From: Streptomyces sp. NBC_01689
GTDB taxonomy: Bacteria; Actinomycetota; Actinomycetes; Streptomycetales; Streptomycetaceae
Direction: 5' to 3'
NCBI RefSeq assembly: GCF_036250675.1
Contig: NZ_CP109592.1
Span: 5,270,001 to 5,334,000 of the forward strand
DNA: 64,000 nt
Shown here: positions 10,185 to 64,000 of the stretch, in pieces
How the letters are laid out: every line of letters starts with the position of its first letter
Numbering within the stretch: position 1 is the stretch's first letter
Notes under the pieces: model-generated
Seen by the model: only the letters and a program-made list of their open reading frames with translations
What the model was told of the DNA's origin: nothing
Database searches by the model: none
Made by a program: the position numbers and the translations under genes

Positions 10185-10196
10185 CTGAAGGCCAAG

Positions 10197-12032: not shown

Positions 12033-12055
12033 AGGAAGGAAAGGAGCGCGCCCAC

Positions 12056-13093
12056 GTGGCGTCCAACCCGCCTGCCCGGCCCACCTCGTTCGCGCCGAAC
12101 GAAACCCAGACGTTCGGCTACGCCCGCGGCGACGACGAGGGGCCCTGGGAGGAGTGGAATCCCACCGCGGATTCCGTCCGTCCCGTCCGCGGCCGGCACC
12201 GCGTCTCCAAGCAGCGCGGGGGCGGACTCGCCCGCAGCTCCACCGTTCTCGGCGTCGGTGTGCTGGCCGCCGTCGGCGCGGGTGGCATCGCCACCGCCGC
12301 GCCCGGCAAGCCGCCCGTGTCGATCTCGCTGCCCGACCTCTCCTCGGTCACCGAGTCGGCCAAGGCCCTGATATCCGACGGCGGTTCCAGCACGCCGAAG
12401 GGCTCCTCCACCCCGCTCACCGGCGCCGGACTGACCAGCGCCGACGCCGCGCAGGGCAACGCGGACGCCGGCGAGGCGCTGCGTGCCCGCATCATCGAGC
12501 AGGCCGAGTCCCAGCAGGACCAGGTCGACAGCGCGGCCCAGGCCGCCGCCGAGGACGCCGCCGCGAAGAAGGCGGTCGCGCTGGCCGCCGAGCAGCAGGA
12601 CGAGGCCAAGGCCAAGGAAGCCGCCGCGAAGAAGAAGGCGGACGCGGAGGCCAAGCAGAAGGCCGAGGCCGCCCGCCTCGCGAAGCTCGCCAAGAGCTTC
12701 TCGCTGCCGACCTCCTCGTACACCCTGACCTCCCGCTTCGGCGACGCCGGTTCCATGTGGTCCTCCGGCTACCACACCGGTCTCGACTTCGCCGCGCCCA
12801 CGGGCACGCTGATCAAGGCGGTCCACAGCGGCACCGTCACCGAGGCGGGCTGGGCCGGCGCGTACGGCTACCGGACGATCCTCACCCTCGACGACGGTAC
12901 GGAGCTGTGGTTCTGCCACCAGTCCTCCATCAGCGTCAGCGTCGGCCAGAAGGTGGCCACGGGTGATGTCATCGGACGGGTCGGCGCCACCGGCAACGTG
13001 ACCGGGCCGCACCTCCACCTGGAGGTCCACCCCGGCGGCGGCGACGCGATCGACCCGATGGCCTGGCTGCACAGCAAGGGCATCAACCCCTGA
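12056..13093 (+). CDS. secreted M23 (LytM) peptidoglycan endopeptidase
   Basis: A 345-residue protein from GTG 12056, with AAGGAG eight to fourteen bases upstream and the c-di-AMP riboswitch in its leader. A basic N-terminal region is followed by a hydrophobic export segment (about residues 65-85), a long Ala/Lys/Glu-rich coiled coil (about 150-220) and a C-terminal LytM domain. The zinc ligands are visible: H240 and D244 in HTGLDF, and H321 in HLHLE (H319-x-H321). It should cleave cross-links in peptidoglycan during growth or sporulation, with expression lowered by c-di-AMP. Confidence 0.93.
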   Translation: MASNPPARPTSFAPNETQTFGYARGDDEGPWEEWNPTADSVRPVRGRHRVSKQRGGGLARSSTVLGVGVLAAVGAGGIATAAPGKPPVSISLPDLSSVTESAKALISDGGSSTPKGSSTPLTGAGLTSADAAQGNADAGEALRARIIEQAESQQDQVDSAAQAAAEDAAAKKAVALAAEQQDEAKAKEAAAKKKADAEAKQKAEAARLAKLAKSFSLPTSSYTLTSRFGDAGSMWSSGYHTGLDFAAPTGTLIKAVHSGTVTEAGWAGAYGYRTILTLDDGTELWFCHQSSISVSVGQKVATGDVIGRVGATGNVTGPHLHLEVHPGGGDAIDPMAWLHSKGINP

Positions 13094-31226: not shown

Positions 31227-31467
31227 CCGGAGTCAGGAACTCCGCCGATCAGGCGGGCGTCTGACGGATGTCGGTCCGGTCGGCCAGACTGGTCCACGAC
31301 CCTGGGCGGGCCGACGGCTCGCTCTCCGCACCCAAGAGGCTTCTTCCCAAGCGCCGCACCCCCAGGGGACGCGGCCCTCGGCGACCGCGCCGCGGGCCCA
31401 CCCCGACCGGATCCGGAGCCGACCGGAGACGACCACCACCAGGCAAGGATCACGAGGCAAGGATTCG

Positions 31468-33123
31468 GTGAATTTCACGCGCTGGAGCGCCCGGCTCCCC
31501 GGAACGCAGCGCCGCGCCGCAGCGCGGACCGAGCACACCGCCTCCCCCGACCGGCGAGGCGAGGGGGCCGTGCCCGCGGCCCGCGCCGAGCGGCCGACCG
31601 AAGGCCGGGAGCCCGCCCCCGCCGTCGACGACCTTCCCGTGCGCGAGGTCCTCGACCGTGTCCCGGCCCTCGTCGCGCTCGTGCACGGCCCGCAGCACCG
31701 CCTCGCCTACGTCAACGACGCCTACGCGGCCGCCTTCGGGCCCCGGCCCGTCGGCGAGCCCGCGCACGAGGCACTGCCCGAGCTCGCGGAGATCGGCCTG
31801 CTCCCCCTCCTCGACCAGGTCCTGCGCAGCGCCAAACCCCGTACGGTCAAGTCCCGCAAGGCGCCCGGCGGCCGCTCGTACACCTTCACCTGCACACCCG
31901 TCGACGCCACGCCCGACGGACCCGACGGCGGCGTGCTGGTCTTCGCCACCGACGTCACCGACCACGCCGAGGCCGCCGAGCGGCTGCGTGCCAGCGAGCG
32001 CCGCCAGCGCGAGACCGCCGTCACCCTCCAGCGCTCCCTGCTCCCCCAGGAGCTGGAGGAGCCCGACGACCTGCGGGTCGCCGCCACCTACCAGCCGGGC
32101 GGCACCGAGGCCGCGGTCGGCGGCGACTGGTACGACGTGATCACCCTCGGCGGCGGCCGTACGGCCCTGGTCATCGGTGACGTGATGGGACGGGGGGTGC
32201 GGGCCGCGGCCGTCATGGGCCAGCTCCGCACCGCCGTGCGCGCGTACGCCCGCCTCGACCTGCCCCCGCACGAGGTGCTCCAGCTCCTCGACGGCCTCGC
32301 CACCGAGATCGACGCCAACCAGATCGCCACCTGCGCGTACGCCGTCCACGACCCCAACGAGGGCCGGCTCGTGTACGCGTCGGCGGGCCATCTCCCGATC
32401 CTCGTGCGCGACGAGAACGGCACCGTGCTGCGGGCCGACGAACCCACCGGACCGCCCCTCGGCACCGGCGGCTGGATGCACGCCTCGGGATCGGTCCCGC
32501 TCGGACCCGGCTCGACGGCCGTCCTCTACACCGACGGTCTGGTGGAGCGTCGCAACGAGGACCTCGACGAGGGCATCGCCGCCCTGGAGCGCGCCCTCGC
32601 CGGCGCCACCGGCACACCCCAGGTCGTCTGCGACCGGCTCGTCCGCTCGGCGGGCGTCACCGCGGACCACGACGACGACGTGGCGGTCCTGGTCCTCCAG
32701 CACCCCGCCCGCACGGGCCCCGACGGCGAGCTCTTCCGCAACGCCGCGCTGGAACTGCTGGGCGGGGTCGAAGCCGCGCCCCGCGCGCGGGCCTTCGCCT
32801 CCGGCGTCCTGACGAGCTGGCGTTTCCCCGCGGACCTGCACGACCTGGGCGTCCTCGCCACCAGCGAACTCGTCGCCAACTCCCTGCAGCACGGCACCCC
32901 GCCGATGCGGCTGCGACTGCGCCGGACCGACCGCCGCCTGATCATCGAGGTCACCGACGGCGACGACCACCTCCCGCGCCGCCGCCGCGCCGAGCCCGCC
33001 GACGAGGCGGGCCGGGGCATCGCGATCGTCGCCACCATCGCCTCGGGCTGGGGCTCCAGACGCACCCCCGGCGGCGGAAAAGCCGTGTGGTGCGAGTTCG
33101 CACTCCCCCGCGCCGCCCACTGA
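31468..33123 (+). CDS. PAS-SpoIIE phosphatase-HATPase regulatory protein
   Basis: A 551-residue cytoplasmic signalling protein from GTG 31468, with AAGGA just upstream. The N-terminal PAS domain (about 50-165; LDRVPALVALVHGPQHRLAYVN) is followed by a SpoIIE/PP2C phosphatase (about 185-415, acidic metal motifs GGDWYD, GDVMGRG, LYTDGLVE, DHDDDVAVL). A C-terminal HATPase (RsbW-like) domain follows (about 440-551; LATSELVANSLQHG, GRGIAIV). Such proteins combine an anti-sigma-like kinase with its phosphatase, integrating a small-molecule or redox cue into partner switching. No anti-anti-sigma gene is adjacent. About 240 bases separate it from ndh. Confidence 0.9.
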   Translation: MNFTRWSARLPGTQRRAAARTEHTASPDRRGEGAVPAARAERPTEGREPAPAVDDLPVREVLDRVPALVALVHGPQHRLAYVNDAYAAAFGPRPVGEPAHEALPELAEIGLLPLLDQVLRSAKPRTVKSRKAPGGRSYTFTCTPVDATPDGPDGGVLVFATDVTDHAEAAERLRASERRQRETAVTLQRSLLPQELEEPDDLRVAATYQPGGTEAAVGGDWYDVITLGGGRTALVIGDVMGRGVRAAAVMGQLRTAVRAYARLDLPPHEVLQLLDGLATEIDANQIATCAYAVHDPNEGRLVYASAGHLPILVRDENGTVLRADEPTGPPLGTGGWMHASGSVPLGPGSTAVLYTDGLVERRNEDLDEGIAALERALAGATGTPQVVCDRLVRSAGVTADHDDDVAVLVLQHPARTGPDGELFRNAALELLGGVEAAPRARAFASGVLTSWRFPADLHDLGVLATSELVANSLQHGTPPMRLRLRRTDRRLIIEVTDGDDHLPRRRRAEPADEAGRGIAIVATIASGWGSRRTPGGGKAVWCEFALPRAAH

Positions 33124-42781: not shown

Positions 42782-44320
42782 TCAGAGCGGGAGTTCGTAC
42801 CGCGGCCAGCGGGACCTGCCCTGTTCGCGGGAGCGGAGCAGGGCCAGGGTCGGAAGGCCCTGCCCCGCTCCGGCCGACAGCAGGTCGGGGAGCTGCGGGA
42901 GCGGGGCGACGGCAGCCACGTCGTCCAGGACGAGCGTAAGTGGTGGGTCGAGGCGACCGGAGGATGACCGTTCGGCCATGCGCCGGCCGCGCTCGACCAC
43001 GCTTGAGACGAGGGCCGTCAGGAGCGGCATGGCGCCGGGATTCGCCCTGGGGTCCTCGATGGGTTCACCGACCACATAAAGCGTGCCCCCTTCGTCGACG
43101 AAGGAATCCAGCGCGAGGGCGTCACTTCGGTTCGGCGTGCACGCCTCGCGGATGTTGACGGTGAACAGGGACGACAGCGCACGGGCCGTCAGCTCCTGCG
43201 CTATGTCGCGGCGTTCGGGGTGCGAGGTGAGCGCGGCCTCCAGTTCGCCCGCCGCGCCGGAAGCGGCCTTGGGATGGGTGCGGAGGGCCCGTACCGCGTC
43301 CTGGACCTGGTTTCCCTGGGCCCAGCGGTGGACGTGGCGGAAGGGCTTGCCGTCCACGGCCGCGGCGTGCAGATAGCTCCGCAGGAGCGTTTCCGCGACG
43401 TCGGCCATGGCGTGGTCGACCTTGGCGGTGGGGCGGACGGGAGCCAGCAGCGCGGCGGCCCGGGCGGCCGCCGTGGCCCTGTCCTCGCAGCCGGCCGCGG
43501 GGGACCAGTGGAGGCGGGCCGGGGTGTCGCAGCGGTGCGTGGGGTCGTAGAGGAGCACGGGGCCGAGCTTGGCCCGGGCGTCCTTGGTCTCCGACCAGGT
43601 CCGCGGGTCCGAGGTGACGACCAGGACGGGGCCTTCCGCGTCCCGTACTGCCTGGGCCGCGGTGGGATGGCGGTCCTCGGCGGGTCCCAGGACGACCGTG
43701 CCCGCGGTCGGGGTGCCCTCCCAGCCGCCCGTCCGCGGGGCTCCGGCCGCCAGGGGGGCCGGCGTCGTCCGCGGTGCTTCGGCGGGGAGGGCGGCGGGGT
43801 GCTCGGTGGGGAGGGGTGCGGGCCGGGGCACCGGGACCTCGTGACGTACGGGCTCCTCGGCGCTCCTGGGGACCTCGCCGTGGGCGTCGACCGGCTCACG
43901 CGCCGGTTCGGGCACCCGAGCGGTGGTCTCGGTCCGCGCCGCGTAGGCGCCGGCCTTCCGGCGTGCGCGCACCGCCCGCCACCGTGCCACCGTGCCCATT
44001 ACGAAGACCGTGAGCACGATGAGCACCATCAACTGCCCGATGAACAGCCCCCAGAAGAGCCCGTACCCCGACAGCTGGTCGGCGGGGGTGTCCGGCCAGG
44101 CGCCCGCGACGTCCTGCGGCTGCCCGATCAGATGGCGCAGGGCCAGGGGCGTACGGGCGACGGTGACGGCCGCCGGCCAGGCGCCCCGGGCGAACCATGC
44201 GGCGAGTCCGGTGGCGGACCACACCAGCAGGGTCAGGCCGAGGAGGAAGGCCAGTACGCCTACCAGCAGACCGTCGGGGACGCCTCCGGCGCGCTCCTGA
44301 TCCCGTTCGTCCCGTCTCAT
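42782..44320 (-). CDS. cmdA: VirD4/TraG-like coupling protein with degenerate P-loop
   Basis: A 512-residue protein, last gene of the six-gene leftward operon. Two membrane segments (about 16-42 and 86-112) are followed by a Pro/Glu linker and a VirD4-like ATPase fold. The Walker A position (about 209-221, VVLGPAEDRHPTA) lacks the GK(S/T) needed for nucleotide binding. The following GPVLVVTSDPRTWSETKDAR and VLLYDPTHRCD match the usual VirD4 continuation, and Walker B (LTLVLDDVAAV) is present. The start overlaps nothing but is one base from the cmdB stop. By recalled synteny it is SCO4126 (cmdA), in a cluster needed for normal differentiation and antibiotic production. Confidence 0.8.
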   Translation of the reverse strand: MRRDERDQERAGGVPDGLLVGVLAFLLGLTLLVWSATGLAAWFARGAWPAAVTVARTPLALRHLIGQPQDVAGAWPDTPADQLSGYGLFWGLFIGQLMVLIVLTVFVMGTVARWRAVRARRKAGAYAARTETTARVPEPAREPVDAHGEVPRSAEEPVRHEVPVPRPAPLPTEHPAALPAEAPRTTPAPLAAGAPRTGGWEGTPTAGTVVLGPAEDRHPTAAQAVRDAEGPVLVVTSDPRTWSETKDARAKLGPVLLYDPTHRCDTPARLHWSPAAGCEDRATAAARAAALLAPVRPTAKVDHAMADVAETLLRSYLHAAAVDGKPFRHVHRWAQGNQVQDAVRALRTHPKAASGAAGELEAALTSHPERRDIAQELTARALSSLFTVNIREACTPNRSDALALDSFVDEGGTLYVVGEPIEDPRANPGAMPLLTALVSSVVERGRRMAERSSSGRLDPPLTLVLDDVAAVAPLPQLPDLLSAGAGQGLPTLALLRSREQGRSRWPRYELPL

Positions 44321-44321
44321 C

Positions 44322-45746
44322 TCATGCCACCGTGGACTCGGATGAACCGTCGAGATCGCCGAGGTGCTGCTCCACGAAGGCCGCGGCCCGCTCCTCGGCC
44401 TCCAGCTCCGCGGCGCGCAGCGCGTCGTCGGCCAGATGGTCCGCGGAGGACTCGGTCATGGCCCGGTCGGTGAAGACGAGGGGCCGTTCGGTCTCCGTGA
44501 TCAGGTGTTTGACGACCTGTACGTTGCCGTTGACGTCCCAGACCGCGATGCCCGGGGTGAGGGTCGGGATGATCTCCACGGCCCACCGGGGCAGACCGAT
44601 CACCCGTCCCGTCGCCCGTGCCTCGTCGGCTTTCTGGGCGTAGATCGTGCGGGTGGAGGCCATCTTGAGGATCGCGGCGGCCTCCTTGGCCGCGGCTCCG
44701 TCCACCACGTCGCTCAGGTGGTGCACCACCGCCACGAAGGACAGGCCGAGTCGGCGGCCGAACTTCAGCAGGCGCTGGAAGAGCTGGGCGACGAAGGGGC
44801 TGTTGATGATGTGCCACGCCTCCTCCACCAGGAAGATGCGCTTCTTGCGGTCGGGCCGGATCCAGGTGTGCTCCAGCCACACGCCGACGATCGCCATCAG
44901 GATGGGCATGGCGATGGAGTTGCGGTCGATGTGGGAGAGGTCGAAGACGATGAGGGGGGCGTCCAGGTCGATGCCGACCGTCGTGGGGCCGTCGAACATG
45001 CCCCTGAGGTCGCCGTCGACCAGCCGGTCGAGCACGAGGGCCACGTCCAGGCCCCAGGCCCGTACGTCGTCTATGGCGACGTTCATCGCCTCGGCCGATT
45101 CCGGTTCGGGGTGGCGGAGTTGCTCGACGATGTCCATCAGGACCGGCTGGCGCTCGACGATGGTCTCGTTCACATAGGCGTGCGCGACCTTCAGGGCGAA
45201 GCCGGACCGCTCGTCGAGGCCGTGCCCCATCGCGACCTCGATGATGGTGCGCAGCAGGGCCAGCTGGCCGGTGGTGGTGATCGCCGGGTCGAGCGGGTTG
45301 AGCCGGATCCCCATGTCCAGGGCGGCCGTCGGGTCGAGGCGGATGGGAGTTATACCCAGCTCCTCCGCGATGAGGTTCCATTCGCCGACCCCGTCCTCGC
45401 CCTGGGCGTCGAGGACGACGACCTGCCGGTCGCGGAAGCGCAACTGGCGCAGGACGTAGGTCTTCTCCAGGGCGGACTTGCCGTTGCCGGACTCGCCGAG
45501 GACCAGCCAGTGCGGGGCCGGGAGCTGTTGCCCGTACAGCTGGAAGGGGTCGTAGATGTATCCCTTCCCGGAGTACACCTCGCGTCCGATGATGACGCCC
45601 GAGTCGCCGAGTCCGGGTGCGGCGGTGGGCAGGTAGACGGCCTGTGCCTGGCCCGTGGAGGTGCGGACCGGCAGCCGGGTCGTCTCGACCTTGCCGAAGA
45701 GGAAGGACGTGAAGGCGTCCGTGGCGGCGGACAGCGGATCCCGCAT
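44322..45746 (-). CDS. cmdB: VirB4/TraC-like ATPase domain protein
   Basis: A 474-residue motor ATPase corresponding to the C-terminal half of VirB4. Walker A is GESGNGKS at 84-91, a VLDAQGE strand is near 111, Walker B is RIFLVEEAWH near 305, and the VirB4-like FGRRLGLSFVAVVHHLSD sensor region follows. It has no membrane segments; it should sit at the inner-membrane base of a type IV secretion-like complex and hydrolyse ATP. The N-terminal half of VirB4 is encoded separately by the upstream gene (cmdC). It is seven bases from the cmdC stop. Known by recollection as SCO4127, the ATP/GTP-binding member of the cmd cluster. Confidence 0.88.
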   Translation of the reverse strand: MRDPLSAATDAFTSFLFGKVETTRLPVRTSTGQAQAVYLPTAAPGLGDSGVIIGREVYSGKGYIYDPFQLYGQQLPAPHWLVLGESGNGKSALEKTYVLRQLRFRDRQVVVLDAQGEDGVGEWNLIAEELGITPIRLDPTAALDMGIRLNPLDPAITTTGQLALLRTIIEVAMGHGLDERSGFALKVAHAYVNETIVERQPVLMDIVEQLRHPEPESAEAMNVAIDDVRAWGLDVALVLDRLVDGDLRGMFDGPTTVGIDLDAPLIVFDLSHIDRNSIAMPILMAIVGVWLEHTWIRPDRKKRIFLVEEAWHIINSPFVAQLFQRLLKFGRRLGLSFVAVVHHLSDVVDGAAAKEAAAILKMASTRTIYAQKADEARATGRVIGLPRWAVEIIPTLTPGIAVWDVNGNVQVVKHLITETERPLVFTDRAMTESSADHLADDALRAAELEAEERAAAFVEQHLGDLDGSSESTVA

Positions 45747-45753
45747 CAGGGCC

Positions 45754-47313
45754 TTACCTCCGAATACCGGTGGCGAAGGGGAGCGTGTTGACGAAGGCCC
45801 GGTGGTGCTCGCGGTCGCACCACTCCAGCTTCAGATACGACTTGCCGGCGGAGGCGCGGATGGTGCGCTTGTCGCGGGCGAGGGCCTCGGGTGAGCGGGA
45901 GGAGACGGTGATGTACCCGACGAGGTTGACTCCCGCGGCGCCGCTGGCGAGGTCCTCGCCGCGCTGGTCGAGGCGGTTGTGGGAGGCGATGTCGCGGGGG
46001 TCGACCGTGCGGTTCATCTTGGCCTGGCGGCTGGCCTCGGCCTCGTCGTTGGTCTTCTCGGTGAGCATGCGCTCGATGGCGATCTCGGTGGGTTCGAGGT
46101 CCATGGTGACGGCGACCGTGCGGATGACGTCCGGGGTGTGGACCAGCAGCGGGGCGAGGAAGTTGACGCCGACCGGGGTCATCGGCCACTCCTTCACCCA
46201 GGCCGTGGCGTGGCACCAGGGCGCGCGGGTGGAGGACTCGCGGGTCTTCGCCTGGAGATAGGTGGGTTCCATGGCGTCGAGTTCGGCGGGCCAGGCGTTG
46301 CGCTTGGTCATCGCCTGGATGTGGTCGATGGGGTGGTCGGGGTCGTACATGGAGTGCACGAGGGAGGCGAGCCGGCCCTGGCCGAGGGGCTGGCGCACCC
46401 GGATGTCGGCTTCCTGGAGGCGCGAGCAGATGTCGGTCAGTTCGCGCGCCATGACGACGGCGAGGCCGGCGTCGCGGTCCAGTTTCTTCCCGCCCTGCGG
46501 CCGGGCGGCACGGGCCATGGCCTGCGCCTCGGCGGCGAGTTCGCGGGTCCAGTGCATGCAGGCGACGAGATAGGCGCGGTGCTGCTCGCTGCTGGTGGAC
46601 ACCATGGACTGGAGCTGGTCGTACGACTGCTGGAGCCAGCCGGGGGACTTCTCGTCGCCGCGTACGGCGACGTCCTTGGCGTGGGCGTCCGGGTCGGCGG
46701 GGAGGGTGCGGGCGAGCATCTGGAGGCGGGTGACGAAGCCGTCGCCGTTCGCGACGTGCTTGAGGAGGGTGCCGAAGCGGTCGACGAGGGCCTCCTGGTC
46801 CTCGCTGTCGCGCAGGCCGACACCGGGGCCCTCGATCTCGATGGCGGCCGTGACGGTGCGGCGGTCGGCGTGCAGGAGCACGGCGATCTCGTCGGGCCCG
46901 AAGGGGGCCGCGAGCCAGGAGATCCGGCCGATGCCGGGCGGCGGGCCGATCTCGATCTCCCGGCCGTCGAGGTGCGTGCCGGCCTCCATGACGTTGCTGC
47001 GGTAGGCCGTGCCGCGGCGCAGGCTGCGCTTGTAACTGCGGTTGATCTCGAACCACTTGTAGAACGTGCGGCGCTTGTACGGGACGTACACGGCGGCGAG
47101 GGCGAGCAGGGGGAAGCCCATCAGCAGCACGATCCGCAGGGACAGTACGGGGACGAGCAGACCGCACATCATGCCGAGGAACGCGCCCGCGATGATGAGC
47201 ACGATCTCGCCGGACTCGCGGTTCCGGCCGACCATCGCGTTCGGCCGGGCGCGGCCGATCAGATATGTACGGCGGGGCGTGACCGGATGGGACACGTGGG
47301 ACTCGGTCGTCAA
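45754..47313 (-). CDS. cmdC: VirB3/VirB4-N-terminal-like membrane protein (SCO6880 family)
   Basis: A 519-residue protein. After a 35-residue start come two adjacent membrane helices (about 36-80, VirB3/PrgI-like). A long soluble part then resembles the non-ATPase N-terminal half of VirB4 (HADRRTVTAAIEIEG, LVGYITVSSRSPEAL). No Walker motif is present, consistent with the ATPase being the next gene. Its ATG overlaps the cmdD stop by four bases (47310-47313), implying translational coupling. It should anchor the CmdB ATPase to the membrane. Confidence 0.82.
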   Translation of the reverse strand: MTTESHVSHPVTPRRTYLIGRARPNAMVGRNRESGEIVLIIAGAFLGMMCGLLVPVLSLRIVLLMGFPLLALAAVYVPYKRRTFYKWFEINRSYKRSLRRGTAYRSNVMEAGTHLDGREIEIGPPPGIGRISWLAAPFGPDEIAVLLHADRRTVTAAIEIEGPGVGLRDSEDQEALVDRFGTLLKHVANGDGFVTRLQMLARTLPADPDAHAKDVAVRGDEKSPGWLQQSYDQLQSMVSTSSEQHRAYLVACMHWTRELAAEAQAMARAARPQGGKKLDRDAGLAVVMARELTDICSRLQEADIRVRQPLGQGRLASLVHSMYDPDHPIDHIQAMTKRNAWPAELDAMEPTYLQAKTRESSTRAPWCHATAWVKEWPMTPVGVNFLAPLLVHTPDVIRTVAVTMDLEPTEIAIERMLTEKTNDEAEASRQAKMNRTVDPRDIASHNRLDQRGEDLASGAAGVNLVGYITVSSRSPEALARDKRTIRASAGKSYLKLEWCDREHHRAFVNTLPFATGIRR

Positions 47314-48626
47314 CGCCCTTCACCTCCCGTGCGGTTGGGACTGCTGTTGCGGGTGTTTCCGGTGGGACTCGTGCGTGGTGGCGGTGCGGCGGCGGGGACG
47401 GATCCGCCGCCCGCGTTCGGGGTGCGTGTGCTGTGTGCCGCGACGCCTCCGGAGGCGGGGTTGGCGGGGCGGGCCGGCTGGTTGCCGCCTCCGCCTCCTC
47501 CTCCGCCGCCGTTGTTGTCGGCGCGGGCGCTGTGCGTCTTGATGCCCTGGGCGACAAGCGTGGCCGGGGAGCTGATCACGGCCGCGGCCTTGCCTTCGGC
47601 GCCCTGCATGATGCGGTTGTTGCGAGAGTTCGCGATCTCGTCGCCGAAGCCGGGGACGAAGCGGTAGATCATGGCGCTGGCGAAGATGGCGAGCAGGATG
47701 ATGGCGAGGCCGGAGACGACGGCGGAGAAGGAGTCCGGGCCGTCGTCGGTCGACAGGGCGCCGGCCAGGCCCAGGACTATCACGATGACCGGTTTCACCA
47801 GGATGACGGCGATCATGACGCCGGCCCAGCGGCGGACGTGCCCCCACAGGTTCTTGTCGACGAGTCCCGCGTACACGACGGTGCCGAGGAGGGCGCCGAC
47901 GTAGAGGAGCGCGGCGCGGATGACGAGCTCCAGCCACAGGACGCCGGCGGCGAGGATCGACACCAGGGACACCACGATCAGCATGATCGGGCCGCCGCCG
48001 ATGTTCTCGCCCTTGGCGAGCGCGCCGGAGAAGGTGCCGAAGAAGGTGTCGGTCTGGTTGCCGGTGGTCTTGGCGAGGACCTCGGTGACGCCGTCGGAGG
48101 CCGAGACGACGGTGTAGAGGATCAGCGGGGTGAACGCGGACGCCAGGACCGTGAGCCAGAGGAAGCCGATGGCCTCGGAGAGCGCGGTGCCGAGGGGGAC
48201 GCCCCGGACCGCCCTCTTCGCCACGGCGAGCAGCCACAGCAGGAGGGTGAGGATCGTCGACGCCGCGAAGACGACGGCGTACTGCTGGAGGAACTTGGGG
48301 TTCGTGAAGTCGACGTTCGCCGTGTCGTTGACCGCGGAGGACAGCTTGTCGATGGTCCAGGACGCGGCGTCGGCACAGCCCTTGGCGAGGGAGGAGAGGG
48401 GGTCGAGGGTGGAGGTGAGGCTGGGGGTGGAGCCGCCGGTGTGGCCCGATCGGCTGCCGTTCTCGCAATAGTCCTTGGCGGGACCGCGGATGAGGTCGCA
48501 GGGGTCGTTGCTGCTCGTCGGCGATGGCTTGGGGGCTGCGATGGCGCGAGTGGCCAGCAGCACCGTAGTGGCCTGAATGGCCGTGACAGCGGCGGCTGCT
48601 TTGAGTACGCGGCGGCTACCGGGCAT
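47310..48626 (-). CDS. cmdD: VirB6/TrbL-like polytopic membrane protein
   Basis: A 438-residue protein from ATG 48626, which has GGAGGG seven bases upstream; a longer frame to 48650 exists. An N-terminal signal-like segment is followed by a Cys-containing extracytoplasmic part (DPCDLIRG, DYCENG). Six or more membrane helices follow (about 130-345), and a Gly/Pro/Asn-rich tail closes the protein. This is the layout of VirB6/TrbL channel components. Its start overlaps the cmdE stop by 11 bases, and its stop overlaps cmdC. Confidence 0.82.
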   Translation of the reverse strand: MPGSRRVLKAAAAVTAIQATTVLLATRAIAAPKPSPTSSNDPCDLIRGPAKDYCENGSRSGHTGGSTPSLTSTLDPLSSLAKGCADAASWTIDKLSSAVNDTANVDFTNPKFLQQYAVVFAASTILTLLLWLLAVAKRAVRGVPLGTALSEAIGFLWLTVLASAFTPLILYTVVSASDGVTEVLAKTTGNQTDTFFGTFSGALAKGENIGGGPIMLIVVSLVSILAAGVLWLELVIRAALLYVGALLGTVVYAGLVDKNLWGHVRRWAGVMIAVILVKPVIVIVLGLAGALSTDDGPDSFSAVVSGLAIILLAIFASAMIYRFVPGFGDEIANSRNNRIMQGAEGKAAAVISSPATLVAQGIKTHSARADNNGGGGGGGGGNQPARPANPASGGVAAHSTRTPNAGGGSVPAAAPPPRTSPTGNTRNSSPNRTGGEGR

Positions 48627-49479
48627 ACGTGAACCCTCCGTACTCTTCAACGGCCTTGGTCATGTCGTCGGCGGTGGACGCCTTCTGGTCGCGTCCGACG
48701 GGGACCGGCCCGTCCTTCTGCGAGAAGTCCGTGATCTTCCAGTCGTCGCTGATCCACTTGAGTCGGTACGTGGTGGTGTACCAGCTCTCCGAGACGGGGT
48801 TCGTCGACCCTTGTCCGGACAGACCGAACAGCGACGTGTACCAGAGGTCGACCGTGGCGCTGTCCGCGCTGGAGGATGTGACTTTCGTGCCCACCGGGAT
48901 GACCCGCGAGATGAAGGTCTGGCCCGCGGGTGCCGCGCCGTCCTTGTCCAGACCGATGTTGGTCAGGAACTTCTCACTGGAGTAGGCGCTGTCGAGGTCC
49001 GACTGTCGGGCATCGGCGACTTCGGGTGCGTACACAGTGCCGACGATCGCGTGACGTTGGCCGGAGTCGAACATCCCAGTTGATCCGAGCGCCACACCGT
49101 AGTTCGCCGCCGCGCTCTGCGCCCCCTGCTCGCTGTGGGCGAATCCCGTCGGGATGGTGCCGGACTTCGAGTCCACCGGCCGGTTCCCGGACGCCGCCGT
49201 GGGGGACGTGCCGGACTTGGCGCCGCCGTTCCCCCCTCCGGTGCCCGAGGAAGAGGAATCGTCTCCTCCACGGTTCGCGAAGGCGATCGCGGCGATCAGG
49301 AGGACGACGACGCCGACCACCGTGACCAGGCTGCGTGAGGACGAGCGTCCGCGGCGGGCGCCGCCGTAGACGTCGCCGGGGCGGTCGGGGAGCCGGGTCC
49401 GGGTCTGGCCCGTGCCCCCGTATCTCCCGTCGTCACCGCGAGAGCCGTCCCCGTATCCGGGTTCGTCACCGAGACTCAT
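48616..49479 (-). CDS. cmdE: VirB8/TcpC-like bitopic protein
   Basis: A 287-residue protein: a cytoplasmic Gly/Arg-rich region, one membrane helix near 50-68 (LVTVVGVVVLLIAAIAFA), a Ser/Gly linker, then an extracytoplasmic domain of about 180 residues with NTF2-like character (SWYTTTYRLKWISDDWKITDF). This matches VirB8/TcpC-type periplasmic scaffold proteins of type IV secretion systems. About 178 bases separate it from the upstream small membrane protein gene. Confidence 0.78.
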   Translation of the reverse strand: MSLGDEPGYGDGSRGDDGRYGGTGQTRTRLPDRPGDVYGGARRGRSSSRSLVTVVGVVVLLIAAIAFANRGGDDSSSSGTGGGNGGAKSGTSPTAASGNRPVDSKSGTIPTGFAHSEQGAQSAAANYGVALGSTGMFDSGQRHAIVGTVYAPEVADARQSDLDSAYSSEKFLTNIGLDKDGAAPAGQTFISRVIPVGTKVTSSSADSATVDLWYTSLFGLSGQGSTNPVSESWYTTTYRLKWISDDWKITDFSQKDGPVPVGRDQKASTADDMTKAVEEYGGFTYAR

Positions 49480-49657
49480 GCCGCGTACGCCCCCTCAACC
49501 TCTGCTGAATCGCGTAGTACGACGGTAGCCGTGCTGGTTTCCGCGCGGACGCGGTGTGGTGACTCGACATCAGGGAAACGCAACCTCAGCCGGTGGGCGC
49601 GACGGACAGGTGGATCGGACAGACGTAGGAGAGAGGAGCCGGGCGCCCCGGCCGGGG

Positions 49658-50125
49658 CTAGACGGCCATGCCGTACACGATGGTGAACAGCGTGCCCAGG
49701 GACCCGATGATGAAGACCCCGGTGAGGCCCGCGATGATCAGGCCCTTGCCCTGTTCCGCGCTGAAGGTGTCGCGCAGCGCCGTCGCGCCGATGCGTTGCT
49801 TGGCCGCTCCCCAGATCGCGATCCCGAGGCAGAGCAGGATGGCGACCGCCATCACGACCTGGATCATCGTCTTGGCTTCGTTGCCCAGGCTGCCGAAGGG
49901 ACCCCAGTCCGGGGCGATCCCGCCGATGATTGTGGTGATGTCGCCCTTGTCGGCTGCGAAAAGCATGTAAGTCACCGCCCCTAGTGGGTAGTTCTGCACC
50001 CCCTGCCACTGCGCGCAGAGGTCGGGCCCATTCTCGCCGACAATGGCGCCGTCGCATGTCGACTTGGCGTCATTGATTGGCGGGTTTCGTACGAATCCCT
50101 TGCCACCGGCGCACGCGGGCCCCAT
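49658..50125 (-). CDS. cmdF: small VirB2/TrbC-like membrane protein, first gene of the cmd operon
   Basis: About 155 residues from ATG 50125. This start is chosen because codon third positions stay GC-rich back to it. A TTG at 50197 and an internal ATG preceded by AGGGGCGG near 49966 are alternatives. Two hydrophobic helices (MIQVVMAVAILLCLGIAIWG and GLIIAGLTGVFIIGSLGTL) separated by a short basic/polar loop match the size and layout of VirB2/TrbC pilin-like proteins. Four cysteines lie before the first helix. It is the most upstream gene of the leftward cluster. Confidence 0.7.
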   Translation of the reverse strand: MGPACAGGKGFVRNPPINDAKSTCDGAIVGENGPDLCAQWQGVQNYPLGAVTYMLFAADKGDITTIIGGIAPDWGPFGSLGNEAKTMIQVVMAVAILLCLGIAIWGAAKQRIGATALRDTFSAEQGKGLIIAGLTGVFIIGSLGTLFTIVYGMAV

Positions 50126-50993
50126 TCGGGAGGCGTGCGCCGGTATGCGCAGAGTCGTATGGTCACTCTGTGTATCACGGCAGGTCACGCCGGGCAATGA
50201 AGCCGATGCGGAACCTGTCGTGTGGTTCCGTCGTTAACCCCTTCTACGAACCTCGTGGGGCGGTCGCCCTGCTCGTCCCGTAGGTCCACCGCGGACGCGT
50301 CCCGGTTGCGGCGGGTTGTCGAGCCGATGTTCTCCGGGTCGCGCGTCTGCCGGAGGTGGACGCGCGGCCGCTGTCACGCAGGCTATCCCCCGTCGCGGTG
50401 GCGCGCGGAGACGGGCCGTGGCCGTTCGCCCGCCGTCCTTTCGCCGGACGCTCCCGTCCGACTGGCCGCGCGGAAAACGTTGTTGACGGTCAGGCGGTCC
50501 GGGATGCCCTGGTGCCGGCGGTACTTGGGGCGGCGCCCGGACGCGGGGGCGCACGTGCCGCGTGCGAGGGCGGCGTCGCGGGGTGCGTACGGGCCCGTCG
50601 CCGGGGAGGGTGGGAGCTCACCGCCCGCGTCCACCTGGTCGCGGCCCGCCTGCCCCGGCTCCCTGACGAGCGCCGGCGGGGAGCGGGGCGACCCCGGTCC
50701 TGGCCCCCTACCCGGGTCTCCCGGGGCGGTGACCCCTGCCGCGTCCGGCCGGGGTTCGCGGGTACCCGGGCCGCGGGGGTCTTCCCCTCCCGGATGTCCA
50801 CAGGCTGTGGACATCCGTCCGACGCGCGCGTGGGACGGGACTGGAGTAACGTAGCGTGACGTCAATTGATCGGAGTGCGAGAGAGAGCGGTCGGCGGACG
50901 TGGGCCGTACGGTGGATCCGGCCCGCGACTCATGGCAGTTTCTCAAGGTGGTTTCAGGATTCCTCTCAGATCCGTGAGCCAGAGTGTGAACCG
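50126..50993. other. 868-base gap upstream of the cmd operon and the serine-protease gene
   Basis: No recognisable gene; open frames here (for example 50356-50859) are Arg/Pro/Gly-rich without domains. It should hold the cmd promoter on the left and the protease promoter on the right. The notable element is a perfect inverted repeat at 50792-50816. Confidence 0.5.
50792..50816. repeat. inverted repeat containing two DnaA-box-like sites
   Basis: Perfect 11-base arms (GGATGTCCACA 50792-50802 and TGTGGACATCC 50806-50816) with a 3-base spacer. Each arm contains TGTCCACA, eight of nine bases of the Streptomyces DnaA box. It may be a regulatory site or simply a hairpin terminator. Confidence 0.6.
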
Positions 50994-51752
50994 ATGAAGC
51001 GCATCACTCGTCCCCCAGGCGCCCGGCGCAACGCCCTGCTCGTCGCGGTCGCGGTGCTGGCCGTGACCTCGGCCTCCGTGGCCGCCGCCGACGACGGACG
51101 CGGCCCCCTGGGCGTGACCGCGCGGGCCTCCGGCACCGTGGCCGCCTCCCGCGTCGGCGCGCTCTTCGGCGGCAGCGGGGCTCTGCGGGGCGGCCACTTC
51201 TGTACCGCGTCCGTCGTGCACAGCACGGGGCGGAACCTGCTCGTGACCGCCGCGCACTGCCTGGACGGCGGCGGCAAGCTCCGCTTCGTGCCCGGATACC
51301 GCGACGGGAAGGCTCCCTACGGCATCTGGGAGATCCGCAGGACCTACGTCGGTGACGCCTGGACCGGCGCCCAGGACGAGGACAGCGACGTCGCCTTCGC
51401 CACCGTCGCCGACCGGGGCGGCAAGGGCGTCGAGGACGTCGTCGGCGCCAACACGTTCGTCACCGGCCGGAAGACCGGGGCCACCGCCGTGACCGTCACC
51501 GGCTACCCCAGCATCCTCGAAGCGCCGATCACCTGCACGAACAGGCCCACCGCTGTCAGCCGCACCCAGCAGCGCATCGCCTGCCCCGCCTTCGCCGGCG
51601 GCACCAGCGGCAGCCCCTGGGTGAACGGGTACGGGGAGGTCGTCGGGGTCATCGGCGGCCGCGAGGCGGGCGGGAACACCGACGACATCTCGTACAGCGT
51701 CGTCCTCGGCGACGAGGCCCGCGACCTCTACCGGTCGACGCAGGCGCAGTAG
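50994..51752 (+). CDS. secreted trypsin-like serine protease
   Basis: A 252-residue chymotrypsin-fold protease from ATG 50994. It has a basic start, a hydrophobic signal (about 16-33, ending SVAAADD) and a mature domain with the triad H88 (TAAHC), D132 (EDSDVAF) and S205 (GTSGSP). Paired cysteines (HFC, AHC, TCT, IACP) suggest disulfides. It should act outside the cell. It is transcribed away from the cmd operon. Confidence 0.88.
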   Translation: MKRITRPPGARRNALLVAVAVLAVTSASVAAADDGRGPLGVTARASGTVAASRVGALFGGSGALRGGHFCTASVVHSTGRNLLVTAAHCLDGGGKLRFVPGYRDGKAPYGIWEIRRTYVGDAWTGAQDEDSDVAFATVADRGGKGVEDVVGANTFVTGRKTGATAVTVTGYPSILEAPITCTNRPTAVSRTQQRIACPAFAGGTSGSPWVNGYGEVVGVIGGREAGGNTDDISYSVVLGDEARDLYRSTQAQ

Positions 51753-51970
51753 CGGGGGTCCGCCGCGCCGCGCGCGGCTTCCGGTCAGGCGGCCGTGCCC
51801 TTTTCGGCGTGATATCGCCTTGCGCGACAGGGGAGTTGCGCGAGGGGCGCGGCGGACGGTCCGGCAGGCCCGCCACATGCGGTTTCTCCTCGTGTGTGAT
51901 CGTCCCGCGGCACGGAGGCCGCCTCTACACTGGCGACGGCGGACTCCCGGGCGGCGAGGGGCGGTTGACG

Positions 51971-52972
51971 GTGCGTAAGGCATGGGTCGTGGCGGCCGCT
52001 GTCGCCGGGGTGGGACTCTCCTTCGTGATGCTGCTCGTCGTCGGGGTCTTCGTCGTCGCGGGCAACCTCGCCAACGGGGTCGGCGGCGGTTCGGTCGGAC
52101 TCGCCAAGGGCGCGGTCCCGGCGGCGTACCAGACGCTCGTGCAGAAGTGGGGCAACCTCTGCGGCGCGATCAACCCCGCCCTGCTCGCCGCGCAGCTGTA
52201 CCAGGAGAGCGGATTCGACCCGAACGCCAAGAGCCCCGCGAAGGCCGAAGGAATAGCGCAGTTCATCCCCGGGACGTGGGCCACGCACGGAGTCGACGGC
52301 GACGGGGACGGCGACCGCGACGTATGGGACCCGAATGACGCGATTCCGTCGGCCGCCTCCTACGACTGCCAGCTCGCCTCGTACGTCAAGGACGCGCCCG
52401 GGAACATCACGGAGAACATGCTCGCCGCCTACAACGCGGGGGCGTACGCGGTCATCAAGTACGGGGGTGTCCCGCCGTACCGGGAGACCCAGAACTACGT
52501 GAAGACAATCACGACCCTGGAGAAGAGCTTCGCCCGGCCCGTCAACCGGGTCGATCCCTCACGGCAGGCCGCCGCGGCCATCTACTACGCGCAGAAGAAG
52601 CTCGGCACGCCCTATCTGTGGGGCGGCAACGGCACCGCTGACCAGGGCGGACGCTTCGACTGCTCGGGTCTGACGAAGGCCGCGTACGAGAGCGTCGGGG
52701 TCACCCTGCCGCGGGTCGCCAACGACCAGTACAACGCCGGTCCGCACCCCGCGCGGGAGGAACTGCTGCCGGGGGACCTGGTGTTCTTCTCCGACGACCT
52801 CACCGACTCGCGGGCGATCCGGCACGTGGGCATCTACGTGGGCGGCGGCTACATGATCGACGCGCCGAGGACGGGTGCCGTCATCCGCTTCGACCCGATC
52901 GACACCCCCGACTACTTCGGGGCCACGCGCGTGACCGAGGATGGCGCGAAAGCACTCCCGACCACGGTCTGA
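51971..52972 (+). CDS. bifunctional lytic transglycosylase / NlpC-P60 hydrolase (VirB1-like)
   Basis: A 333-residue secreted cell-wall hydrolase from GTG 51971, with GAGGG ten bases upstream (TTG 51965 is possible). An N-terminal membrane helix (about 5-35) is followed by an SLT/lysozyme-like domain with catalytic E79 (YQESGFDPNA). An NlpC/P60 domain follows, with C231 (RFDCSGL) and H285 (RHVGIYVG). It should cut both glycan strands and stem peptides. This two-domain layout is that of VirB1-type hydrolases of Gram-positive conjugation systems, and it lies near the cmd cluster, though on the other strand and beyond a protease gene. Confidence 0.92.
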   Translation: MRKAWVVAAAVAGVGLSFVMLLVVGVFVVAGNLANGVGGGSVGLAKGAVPAAYQTLVQKWGNLCGAINPALLAAQLYQESGFDPNAKSPAKAEGIAQFIPGTWATHGVDGDGDGDRDVWDPNDAIPSAASYDCQLASYVKDAPGNITENMLAAYNAGAYAVIKYGGVPPYRETQNYVKTITTLEKSFARPVNRVDPSRQAAAAIYYAQKKLGTPYLWGGNGTADQGGRFDCSGLTKAAYESVGVTLPRVANDQYNAGPHPAREELLPGDLVFFSDDLTDSRAIRHVGIYVGGGYMIDAPRTGAVIRFDPIDTPDYFGATRVTEDGAKALPTTV

Positions 52973-53186
52973 ACCCACCCCCTGAGCTGCGGCGATGTAT
53001 CTCTCTTCGATAACGTCTGCGTGATCATTCGGTGGAGTGTGGAACGTACTGAAGGGCACTGTGCGTTCCTGTTGAGGTAGAGCGGATCCAGGACTTCCGG
53101 GCCGCGGATCTACACACCACGGGGTGGTTCGGGCGGCGCACGAAAGGGTGCGCCCGCGGGAAAGACGACGAAGGGGCCGCAGCACC

Positions 53187-53888
53187 ATGGCTGGACTCGC
53201 CGAATCCGGTTCGAACCCCGACGTCGACCTGCTCTACGACATCAACGGACTCGCCAAGGACGCACCCCGCTGGTTCGACCGGGGCATGGAGTTCGTGGGC
53301 GAGTACGGGCTGCTGCTCGCTCTGGTCCTGCTGGTGCTGTGGTGCTGGTGGACCGTGCGGCGCGGTGGCGCCGAGGGCGCGGCGGCGTCCGTGGCCGGGC
53401 TGGTCTGGGCACCACTGGCCGCCGGTATCGCCGTGCTGGTGAACGTGCCGATAAGGGGCTTCGTCGAACGCCCCCGTCCGTTCGTCGACCACCAGGGTCT
53501 CGACGTGCTGGTGTCGGGCAAGACCGACTTCTCGTTCGTGAGCGACCACGCGACGCTCACGATGGCGATGGGGGTCGGCCTGTTCGTCGTGCACCGGAAG
53601 TTCGGCCTGGCGGGGATAGGGCTCGCGCTCGTCGAGGGCTTCTGCCGGGTCTACATGGGCGTGCACTACCCGACGGACGTCATCGGCGGATTCGCCCTGG
53701 GCACGGCCGTGGCGCTGCTGCTCTCCCCGCTGGCCATGGCCCTGCTGACGCCGGTGATGAAGGCCGTCGAGGGGTCCCCGCGGGCCGGCCGGCTCGTCCG
53801 GGCGCGGCGCGCGGGTCTCACGGGGCAGCAGGCGCGGATTCCGGAGGCCCGGGCGGAGCGGCCGGACGAGTCCGATCTGGCGGCCTGA
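53187..53888 (+). CDS. PAP2-family membrane phosphatase
   Basis: A 233-residue integral membrane protein from ATG 53187. The phosphatase signature is spread as in the family: the RPRPF region (ERPRPFVDH), then FVSDHATLTMA, then YMGVHYPTDVIGG with the second histidine. Five or six membrane helices carry it. It should hydrolyse a lipid phosphate or diphosphate (phosphatidate or undecaprenyl-PP are family examples). The substrate is not determinable. It stands alone. Confidence 0.9.
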   Translation: MAGLAESGSNPDVDLLYDINGLAKDAPRWFDRGMEFVGEYGLLLALVLLVLWCWWTVRRGGAEGAAASVAGLVWAPLAAGIAVLVNVPIRGFVERPRPFVDHQGLDVLVSGKTDFSFVSDHATLTMAMGVGLFVVHRKFGLAGIGLALVEGFCRVYMGVHYPTDVIGGFALGTAVALLLSPLAMALLTPVMKAVEGSPRAGRLVRARRAGLTGQQARIPEARAERPDESDLAA

Positions 53889-53944
53889 GGGCCGTCCCGG
53901 GCCAGGGACGGCGAGGGGCGACCCCCGTCCGCGGCGGGCGGAGG

Positions 53945-55516
53945 CTACAGCGCCTGGGGGAACGAGAAGAAGCGGTTCGGGTCGTACTGCTTCTTCAGCG
54001 CGGTGAGCCGGGGAGCCGCGTCGCCGTAGTACGCCTTGCGCCAGTCCGTGAGGGTCGGGTCCGTGTAGTTCTGGTAGGCGGCTCCGGAGGCGTGGCGGGC
54101 CATCGCCGTGTGCGCCGAGGTCAGCCAGGACTGGGCCGTGGCGCCGGAACCGCCCGGCTGCCAGGAAACGATGTACTGGGCGAGCATCCTCGACCGGCGG
54201 TGCACGAAGGCCGTCGCGGTCGGTGCGACGCGGTTGACCGCGCCGCCCAGCGCGGTGAACGCGATGCTGCCCGAACCGCCGCGGACCGAGCCCAGCTGGT
54301 TCAGGAGGGTCTGGATGCCGGCCGCGGAGAGCGAGCGGTCGAAGAAGTCCGACCGGGCCGCGTACGTCTCCCGGCCGAGGGCGCCCTGCGCGGACCGGCC
54401 CGGCGTCGTGCCCGGCAGATGGCACTGGGGGTCGGTGGGGAAGGAGGAGCAGCCCGCGTACGCCTCCATCGACTCCTCGTAGGAGTGCCTCTTGAGGGAG
54501 ACGCTGGAGGCCGGCCCGCCGACCCGGTCGGCCAGGCGGTCCACGGCGTTCTGGAGTTCGCCGTAGGTGCCCAGGGAGAAGGCGGCGACGGAGACGCGGG
54601 GGCTGCCGCCGGCGGCCCTCTCGAGATGCAGGGACGACCAGATCTCGTCCGGCTGGTCCGGTCCCCACTCCTGCCAGGCCTTCACCACGGCGGCGGCCTT
54701 CGCCCACGGCCAGGTCAGGTACGCGGAGACGGCCTGCGGGGCGGGGTGGGTCCGGTAACGGAGCTCGGTGACGACCCCGAAGTTGCCGTTGCCCGCGCCG
54801 CGCAGCGCCCAGAAGAGGTCCTTGTGCTCGCTCGCGTTCGCGACGAGCTCCTTGCCGTCCGCCGTGATCAGCGTCGCCTGGGTGAGACTGTCGCAGGTCA
54901 GGCCGTACGCCCGCGACACGACACCGTGGCCGCCGCCGAGGGTCAGACCGGAGACGCCGACGGTCGGGCAGGAACCCGCGGGGATGGTGACGCCCTTCGC
55001 GGCGAGTCCGCGGTAGACGTCGATCAGCTTGGAACCGGCGCCGACGACGGCCTCGTTCGCGGACGCCCGGATCTTGTCGAGCTTGGAGACGTCGAGGATC
55101 AGCCGGCCGTCGCCGGAGGACCAGCCGGCGTAGGAGTGGCCGCCGTTGCGTATCGACAGGGGTATGTGATGGGCGCGGGCGTAGGCCATGGCCGTACGTA
55201 TGTCGTCGGCGTGGGCGGCGTACGCGACGGCCGCGGGCTTCAGCGTGTCGAAGCGGGTGTTGTACAGCTGGTGCGCGGTGGACCAGGCGCGGTCGCCGGG
55301 ACGGACCAGGATGCCGTCCAGGTCCTTGGCGAGGGCGGTCCAGTTCGCGGCGGCGCGGACGCCCGCGGGGGTGGCGCTCGCGGTCGCGTGGACCGGAGCC
55401 CCGGACGTCTGCGCCGCCGCCGACGCCCGGGTGGAGGGGCCGCCCTTCGCGTTGCAGGCGGTGGTGACCGCCGCCGCGAGCGCGGCCGCGCCGCCTATGA
55501 ACATCCGCCGTTGCAT
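53945..55516 (-). CDS. exported FAD-linked oxidase, berberine-bridge-enzyme type
   Basis: A 523-residue flavoprotein from ATG 55516 with GGGAGG upstream. The start MQRRMFIGGAAALAAA has a twin-arginine and ends in TTAC, suggesting Tat export, possibly as a lipoprotein. The PCMH-type FAD domain shows H127 (GGHSYAGW) and C208 (YGLTCDS), the pair used for bicovalent flavin attachment in BBE enzymes. The C-terminal BBE motif (NYTDPTLTDWRKAYYG, YDPNRFF) is intact. It probably oxidises a sugar or a secondary metabolite outside the membrane. Confidence 0.9.
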   Translation of the reverse strand: MQRRMFIGGAAALAAAVTTACNAKGGPSTRASAAAQTSGAPVHATASATPAGVRAAANWTALAKDLDGILVRPGDRAWSTAHQLYNTRFDTLKPAAVAYAAHADDIRTAMAYARAHHIPLSIRNGGHSYAGWSSGDGRLILDVSKLDKIRASANEAVVGAGSKLIDVYRGLAAKGVTIPAGSCPTVGVSGLTLGGGHGVVSRAYGLTCDSLTQATLITADGKELVANASEHKDLFWALRGAGNGNFGVVTELRYRTHPAPQAVSAYLTWPWAKAAAVVKAWQEWGPDQPDEIWSSLHLERAAGGSPRVSVAAFSLGTYGELQNAVDRLADRVGGPASSVSLKRHSYEESMEAYAGCSSFPTDPQCHLPGTTPGRSAQGALGRETYAARSDFFDRSLSAAGIQTLLNQLGSVRGGSGSIAFTALGGAVNRVAPTATAFVHRRSRMLAQYIVSWQPGGSGATAQSWLTSAHTAMARHASGAAYQNYTDPTLTDWRKAYYGDAAPRLTALKKQYDPNRFFSFPQAL

Positions 55517-55732
55517 ATGAGCCTCCCGATGGTTCCCGTGGGACGAGACGGGTGACCGGTTCCGAGGGTTCCACAACGGGAGGCCGAAGAACGGAATCGC
55601 TACAGGACCGTGATCCCCGTATGACGGATATCACGGACATCGCACCCCGATCGCGGCCTCCGGCCAGGCACTTCACGCCCGCCCGTCGCCCGCGCGGAGG
55701 CCGCTCGGGGCGGCGCGGGGGCAGGAGAGGGG

Positions 55733-63324: not shown

Positions 63325-64000
63325 TCAGCTCAGGTTCGAGACGGCGGCGCGAACCTTGGTGATGATCTCGGCGGGGATCGGCGCGTACTGCGCGTCGGTC
63401 AGAAGCTTCTGACCGTCCTCGCTCGCGATGTAGTTGAGGAAGGCCTTCGTGGCGGGCAGGGTGTCCGCCTTGTTGCCCTTCTCGCAGACGATCTCGTAGG
63501 TGACCAGGGTGAGCGGGTAGGCGCCCTCCTCGGTCGGCTTGTAGTTCAGGCCGAGGGACAGGTCGTTGCCGGTGCCCTTGACCTCGGCGGTGGCGATGGC
63601 CTTGGTGGCGTTCTCGACGCTGGCCTTGACCGGGGTGGCGGCGTCCGTCTTGAGGTCCACGGTGCTGATGCCGTCAGCGGCGTAGGAGAGCTCGAAGTAG
63701 GAGATCGCGCCGGCGGTCTGCTTCACCTGCTGGGCGAGACCGGAGGAACCCTGAGCGGACTGGCCGCCCTTGGCCTGCCACGCCTTGCCGCCGGAGTAGT
63801 TCCAGTCGGACGGGGCGACGGCCTTCAGGTACTTGGTGAAGTTGTCCGTGGTGCCGGACTCGTCCGAGCGGTGGAACGCCTGGATCTTGGTGCTGGGCAG
63901 CTTCGCGGTGGTGTTCAGCTTCGCGATCGCCGGGTCGTTCCACTTGGTGATCTTGCCGTCGAAGATCTTGGCGATGGTGGACGCGTCGAGGACGAGGCCG
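63325..64000 (-). CDS. pstS: phosphate-binding protein PstS (N-terminal part outside window)
   Basis: The C-terminal 224 residues of the periplasmic-type phosphate-binding protein; the start lies right of the window. HRSDESGTTDNFTKYL is the phosphate-binding signature (Ser/Arg/Asp/Thr ligands), and GAISYFELSYA and LVTYEIVCEKG are typical of PstS. It delivers phosphate to PstCAB. The operon promoter, where PhoP boxes would be expected, is not in the window. Confidence 0.96.
   Translation of the reverse strand, partial: GLVLDASTIAKIFDGKITKWNDPAIAKLNTTAKLPSTKIQAFHRSDESGTTDNFTKYLKAVAPSDWNYSGGKAWQAKGGQSAQGSSGLAQQVKQTAGAISYFELSYAADGISTVDLKTDAATPVKASVENATKAIATAEVKGTGNDLSLGLNYKPTEEGAYPLTLVTYEIVCEKGNKADTLPATKAFLNYIASEDGQKLLTDAQYAPIPAEIITKVRAAVSNLS

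Follow-up and report, generated by a model that had tools for sequence, protein, structure and literature searches.

Streptomyces sp. NBC_01689 carries, within a 64,000-nucleotide stretch of contig NZ_CP109592.1 (positions 5,270,001 to 5,334,000; this whole stretch is hereafter the window), six leftward genes and a nearby peptidoglycan hydrolase gene that correspond to cmdABCDEF (SCO4126-4131) and tgdA (SCO4132) of Streptomyces coelicolor. This identity had been proposed in a preliminary description of the sequence and was borne out, in that the same six genes are present with tgdA close by; the SCO numbers were matched through family names, gene order and phenotype papers, with no S. coelicolor sequence compared. 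A 2009 paper (PMC2782261) already reported the cmd locus, its sporulation phenotype, its homology to VirB4 and the possibility of a type IV-like channel; the type IV channel idea for cmd is thus not new. In the excerpts consulted of the 2009 account, CmdA is described as a membrane protein only, and no coupling ATPase, VirB8, VirB6 or SCO5677 is named. The proposals made here, that CmdA is a likely pseudo-ATPase, that CmdE has a predicted VirB8 fold, that the distantly encoded SCO5677 protein is a candidate VirD4 and that the two loci may supply one machine, were not found in the open-licence literature searched. An alarmone synthetase near genes like those of a type IV secretion system (T4SS) belongs to a different cluster (PMC12691689).

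Organization of the locus and its VirB-type products

As had been claimed, the six open reading frames (ORFs) are packed almost continuously (Table 1). The spacing is 1 nt between cmdA and cmdB, 7 nt between cmdB and cmdC, and 178 nt between cmdE and cmdF, whilst the ORFs of cmdD and cmdE overlap. The longest cmdC ORF (from 47313) overlaps cmdD by 4 nt, and a cmdC start at 47295 leaves a gap of 14 nt; for cmdF, the GTG at 49975 is preferred, the longest ORF reaching 50197.

Table 1. Genes of the cmd locus, with the distant SCO5677-place gene; positions refer to the window unless stated otherwise.
Gene	Coordinates	Strand	Description
cmdA (SCO4126 place)	42782..44320	-	VirD4/TraG-like coupling protein, degenerate Walker A; predicted pseudo-ATPase
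cmdB (SCO4127 place)	44322..45746	-	RecA-like C-terminal ATPase half of VirB4
cmdC (SCO4128 place)	45754..47313	-	SCO6880 family; VirB3-like transmembrane segments and VirB4 N-terminal-like part
cmdD (SCO4129 place)	47310..48650	-	Polytopic membrane protein, apparently VirB6/TrbL-related; likely start 48626
cmdE (SCO4130 place)	48616..49479	-	One transmembrane segment and predicted extracytoplasmic VirB8/NTF2-like domain
cmdF (SCO4131 place)	49658..49975	-	Small protein (105 aa) with two transmembrane segments, VirB2-like in topology
tgdA (SCO4132 place)	51809..52972	+	SLT transglycosylase and NlpC/P60 endopeptidase, VirB1-like
Trypsin-like serine protease gene	50856..51752	+	Between cmdF and tgdA; Trypsin_2 4.4e-11
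SCO5677-place gene	C1:3397550-3399676 of the window's genome		About 1.9 Mb from the cmd operon

CmdB matches AAA_10 in Pfam (5.7e-13) and the Thermoanaerobacter VirB4 4ag5 (4.3e-06); the VirB4/TraC families score below their full-length cut-offs, and the FtsK family was not among its Pfam or NCBIfam matches. Its Walker A motif reads GESGNGKS at residues 84-91. The lysine of this motif, K90, is needed for function, although the authors concede possible instability of the mutated protein, and their PHYRE matches for CmdB included the FtsK motor and also RecA (PMC2782261). CmdC matches NF042935 (4.1e-53), and the profile NF045971 is covered contiguously but weakly by the two proteins, positions 138-362 by CmdC (E 0.25) and 370-679 by CmdB. 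By these matches CmdC and CmdB appear to be the two halves of a split VirB4, the evidence for CmdC as the N-terminal half being the weaker; the two N-terminal transmembrane (TM) segments of CmdC are VirB3-like by topology only.

CmdD has seven hydrophobic segments and a match to SCO6881_fam (8.7e-05) that lies far under its cut-off. The window's own CmdD has no Pfam match; homologs from the mobile-type clusters L176 and L177 (23% identity) match the TrbL/VirB6 family PF04610 at 9.2e-10 and 6.1e-05, and a TrbL/VirB6 match was obtained in 2/18 CmdD-family members. CmdD would thus be VirB6-like by way of family relatives at 23%. CmdE combines one TM segment with a VirB8/NTF2-like domain at about residues 104-282; its relatives match Pfam DUF8175. 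A search of PDB sequences with its profile gave nothing useful; when its structural model was compared with known folds, rows 1-21 by Z were T4SS VirB8 relatives, with DotI and IcmL-like proteins among the fold matches, and CmdE is accordingly modelled as a VirB8-like NTF2-fold protein. In the CmdF family (where alignment row L148 is in the wrong frame), T4SS_pilin is matched in one of 17 members, a plasmid-type relative, weakly (0.013) and under the cut-off.

The preliminary description had assigned these products to VirB families. Profile searches tie CmdB and CmdC to VirB4 and, through the PF04610 matches of its relatives, CmdD to VirB6; the VirB8 assignment also stands, as does VirB1 for the transglycosylase/NlpC gene on the other strand, which carries SLT and NlpC/P60 domains by Pfam. 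VirB3 and VirB2 are likenesses of topology only.

CmdA and the SCO5677 protein

The VirD4-like gene reported in the operon does show homology to type IV coupling proteins (T4CPs): a profile-profile comparison of CmdA with T4CPs of plasmid- or mobile-type clusters gives a match of 2.9e-73, alongside a weak TraG-D_C match (1.7e-4, just under its cut-off) and TM segments at 18-36 and 89-107. Its Walker A motif has been lost, however, with GPAEDRHP in place of GxxxxGK, and the window's copy ends early, its C-terminus being shortened. Judged with a profile of nine plasmid- or mobile-type T4CPs, and with rows collapsed to genomes, a canonical Walker A (GK) is present in 1/69 genomes covering the region and lacking in 68/69. 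Two further rows (L159 and L160) were rejected as CmdA, the gene there being unrelated and, by sequence reading, a secreted nucleotidase. Deletion of cmdA in S. coelicolor leaves sporulation without apparent difference (PMC2782261), and because of this and of the missing Walker A, the operon alone would not be a complete machine. As part of the two-locus explanation set out below, CmdA is rather probably a pseudo-ATPase, at most a scaffold, or gone.

A candidate for the working VirD4 is the product of the SCO5677-place gene, which was located by synteny with gabT; SCO5676 is a GabT homolog and SCO5679 a semialdehyde dehydrogenase (PMC8998196). Its predicted structure has two N-terminal TM segments, a RecA fold with Walker A and a TrwB-like overall form, with fold matches to TrwB, Cagbeta and the Legionella coupling complex, and Walker A is kept in 59/59 distinct sequences of the family. 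Searches of Pfam and PDB sequences with the protein and its profile returned nothing significant (IcmO/DotL at 0.81). On the strength of the model, the SCO5677 protein may be regarded as a VirD4-type coupling ATPase; the one paper in the literature searched that names SCO5677 groups it and cmdBCDEF together as 'DNA transaction genes', and the excerpts seen do not call it a coupling protein. The second AAA_10 match in the genome (L003) proved to be FtsK. It was also observed that a T4CP-type motif glutamine (LTQSL, LAQTI), kept in the SCO5677 homologs of other families, is arginine (LTLRTL and the like) in the Streptomycetaceae rows.

The SCO5677 family was found in 80/81 genomes of the family set, the miss being G326 (800 contigs), and in 116/119 of the order set, where G376 has only a piece at a contig edge. 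A profile search of the misses recovered a piece in G423 and nothing convincing in G424 (710 contigs), G326 or G362 (20 contigs, 98% complete). Among the 77 genomes of the order in which CmdA was examined, 76 carry SCO5677, and the lone exception, G362, is also the only one whose CmdA P-loop is canonical; this contrast of an intact CmdA with no SCO5677 fits replacement of the motor but, being single, is suggestive only. In the two genomes of family f48 that were read, gabT (71-77% identical to that of the window's genome) adjoins the SCO5677 homolog, and these homologs are therefore taken to be positional orthologs.

Conservation, relatives and surroundings

CmdB was found in all 81 genomes of the family set, which span 17 genera, and in 118/119 of the order set (103/104 of the window's genus, 14/14 of f48 and 1/1 of f47; the miss is G428). 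Its best pieces in the order are 80-98% identical to the window's, the match being broken into pieces in a few genomes. In the class set (296 genomes, at most five candidates scored in each), 106 genomes match CmdB at 1e-10, 28 of them of the window's family; none of the other matches listed exceeds 37% identity except that of G007 at 78%, an assembly of 970 contigs with 6% contamination. At the loci of 20 relatives, homologs were found of CmdA in 16, CmdB in 20, CmdC in 20, CmdD in 19, CmdE in 19, CmdF in 20 and TgdA in 18, confirming that the six genes and tgdA recur together more than by chance. tgdA is divergent from the cmdF match within 423 bp in 16/20 loci and lies 2.3-3.2 kb away in two; it was not found there in the remaining two. 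At one locus (L161 of G312, a single contig) cmdC comes almost directly after cmdF, and no homolog of CmdD, CmdE or TgdA was found there.

In the CmdB tree, from which L155 (for its length) and L175 were left out, the 20 chromosomal rows form one clade (98/97) that includes the f47 and f48 copies from outside the window's family. The CmdC tree (without L158, again for length) gives the chromosomal clade lower support (85/97), and long branches limit what the deeper joins can tell. These results support the view that the cmd locus is ancient, chromosomally fixed and vertically kept in Streptomyces and its order. The word 'domesticated', applied to it beforehand, holds for a vertically kept chromosomal machine but not for a recent capture, since one order-spanning clade means that it is ancient.

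On plasmids, all 101 records are less than 60% identical in CmdB (SLP2 33%), and the ten nearest (40-49%) are plasmids 88 kb to 1.7 Mb long. The transfer genes SLP2.21-23 of the linear plasmid SLP2 resemble cmdBCD and, like the cmd genes, have a hydrolase gene (here SLT/C40) beside them, and the five giant-plasmid clusters that were fetched, with CmdB at 47-49%, hold relatives of all six Cmd proteins in every case (5/5). Unlike CmdA, the single VirD4 of plasmid type that was scanned is intact (T4SS-DNA_transf 1.3e-16), and the annotation of one cmd-like plasmid region names no relaxase. In five Streptomycetaceae genomes (L166-L170) CmdA-F-like genes are present as a second, complete set, which has relatives on large plasmids and, in the examples scanned, a peptidoglycan hydrolase near by; L166 and L170 also encode a methylase/helicase protein, 2000 aa or longer, that runs off the stretch.

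The preliminary description had seen no relaxase or integrase and had found the base composition to match the surroundings, and both statements held. A Pfam scan of 38 of its 39 gene calls (all but 63325-63726; E limits 1 to 1e-4) found no transposase, relaxase or integrase domain, and the operon has a G+C content of 0.701, compared with 0.721 for the window once the ribosomal RNA operon is left out; a dip at 36-41 kb, considered as foreign G+C, is that ribosomal RNA operon. The protease gene between cmdF and tgdA had been passed over in the preliminary description, although it lies inside the span described. It is probably not part of the Cmd machine, and a tblastn search of the 20 cmd loci at E 1e-3 found no homolog of it. 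A gap of 2-3 kb is also seen at its position in two close relatives, but no similar protease was found in the gap. The ORF at 53025-55676, used as a neighbour marker in the 20-locus comparison, is probably false; 53945-55516 has FAD-binding domains. Elsewhere in the window, a c-di-AMP riboswitch (11887-12044) lies a short way upstream of the M23 peptidase gene at 12056-13093, and SpoIIE-type phosphatase domains are encoded by two genes (10070-11671 and 31078-33123).

A possible secretion system split over two loci

The explanation favoured here, which we consider fairly probable, is that cmd encodes a relaxase-less T4SS in which the motor of CmdA has been lost, the SCO5677 protein acts from its distant locus as the working coupling ATPase, and the cargo is most likely protein. 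TgdA would open or loosen the peptidoglycan, and the channel would be made up of CmdE (VirB8), CmdD (VirB6), the VirB2-like CmdF and, as VirB3, the membrane part of CmdC. CmdC and CmdB would form a VirB4 motor, CmdB powering assembly or transport, with CmdA as a vestigial or structural paralogue; the SCO5677 protein would load the substrate, and during the formation of aerial hyphae one or more proteins would be exported through the membrane and wall of the hypha. Phenotype, presence across genomes and the degenerate CmdA suggest that SCO5677 serves the Cmd machine, and protein cargo appears likelier than DNA because no relaxase was found. The wider proposal, of an order-wide, developmental T4SS split over two distant chromosomal loci, with CmdA either vanished or reduced to a pseudo-ATPase and the loading of developmental cargo taken over by SCO5677 as a second VirD4 lineage, is to us evenly poised.

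Cmd differs from Gram-positive conjugative T4SSs of the pIP501 and pCF10 type in that no relaxase was found, VirB4 appears to be in two genes and the working coupling ATPase would lie outside the operon. It is like the protein exporters Dot/Icm and Cag in the modelled folds of CmdE (DotI, IcmL-like) and SCO5677 (Cagbeta, Legionella coupling complex). Dot/Icm and Cag have outer-membrane complexes and known effectors. TraB/FtsK-type conjugation in Streptomyces likewise uses a membrane ATPase machine acting on hyphae (PMC12857230), but CmdB has no FtsK family match in Pfam or NCBIfam, unlike the FtsK/SpoIIIE motor of that system.

Several observations weigh against the favoured explanation. SCO5677 homologs at 34-35% identity occur in 14 genomes of the Jiangellaceae-like family f19, six of which have no CmdB relative at 1e-10, and at the two f19 loci read (L142, L145) the homolog has no gabT or dehydrogenase gene near it, nor was any T4SS gene recognised in the neighbourhood. 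Within the order, SCO5677 falls to about 40% identity whereas CmdB stays at 80-98%, and the CmdE model has a small margin over unrelated NTF2 folds, which Foldseek put first. The lone homologs and the very different rates of change would suit SCO5677 as a translocase, of DNA or of protein, that works independently with partners of its own, Cmd then having no coupling ATPase and receiving substrates via CmdB or from outside the membrane. Such independence is possible but doubtful, given the near-identical presence of the two in the order, the matching phenotype and the coincidence of SCO5677 absence with an intact CmdA motif. The 2009 authors suggested instead that Cmd moves DNA, as a type IV-like channel with CmdB as motor that helps to clear or segregate chromosomes at sporulation septa. 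Loss of cmd delays sporulation and raises actinorhodin. In null mutants 6-8% of the spores are anucleate and chromosomes are uneven (PMC2782261), which, with the FtsK-motor-like prediction for CmdB, the predicted resemblance of SCO5677 to TrwB (a DNA-handling coupling protein), the location of the nearest plasmid relatives on large plasmids and the cmdBCD-like transfer genes of SLP2, speaks for DNA. We nevertheless think it unlikely: the 38 gene calls scanned hold no relaxase domain, transfer of plasmid pQC542 is not significantly changed in a cmd mutant, the phenotype precedes septation, aerial growth already being delayed (PMC2782261), and the genome has its own FtsK. The anucleate spores may be a secondary effect or may point to DNA handling.

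Somewhat less likely again is a TgdA-centred envelope or cell-wall assembly complex that no longer secretes, its T4SS parts now serving to scaffold the remodelling of the wall as hyphae grow. The close divergent placing of tgdA and cmdF, the cmd phenotype that tgdA shares and that the authors read as a cell-envelope effect, the lost CmdA motor and the listing of CmdE (SCO4130) as a glycoprotein (PMC6593405) all agree with such a complex; the kept Walker A and needed K90 of CmdB, the ranking of CmdB and CmdC with the best conserved Cmd proteins and the invariant Walker A of the SCO5677 family do not. A decayed or dormant conjugative element, either an integrative and conjugative element or a plasmid remnant, would account for a whole gene set like that of plasmid clusters, with the best plasmid CmdB relatives at 40-49%. 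This is highly improbable, and was rejected on the order-wide conservation at 80-98%, the single clade, the kept gene order and the lack of an integrase, relaxase or other mobility gene among those seen in the window.

T4SSs are known mainly from conjugation and effector injection, and a relaxase-less, vertically inherited, developmental T4SS belonging to the core of the genome would be a distinct use of such a system. If the favoured explanation is true, it would explain the common phenotype of the separately described cmd, tgdA (reportedly published in 2013) and SCO5677 mutants. It would also provide a Gram-positive case of a T4SS whose motor has been replaced and whose role in the cell is a core one, and the proteins bound by SCO5677 would be its expected cargo.
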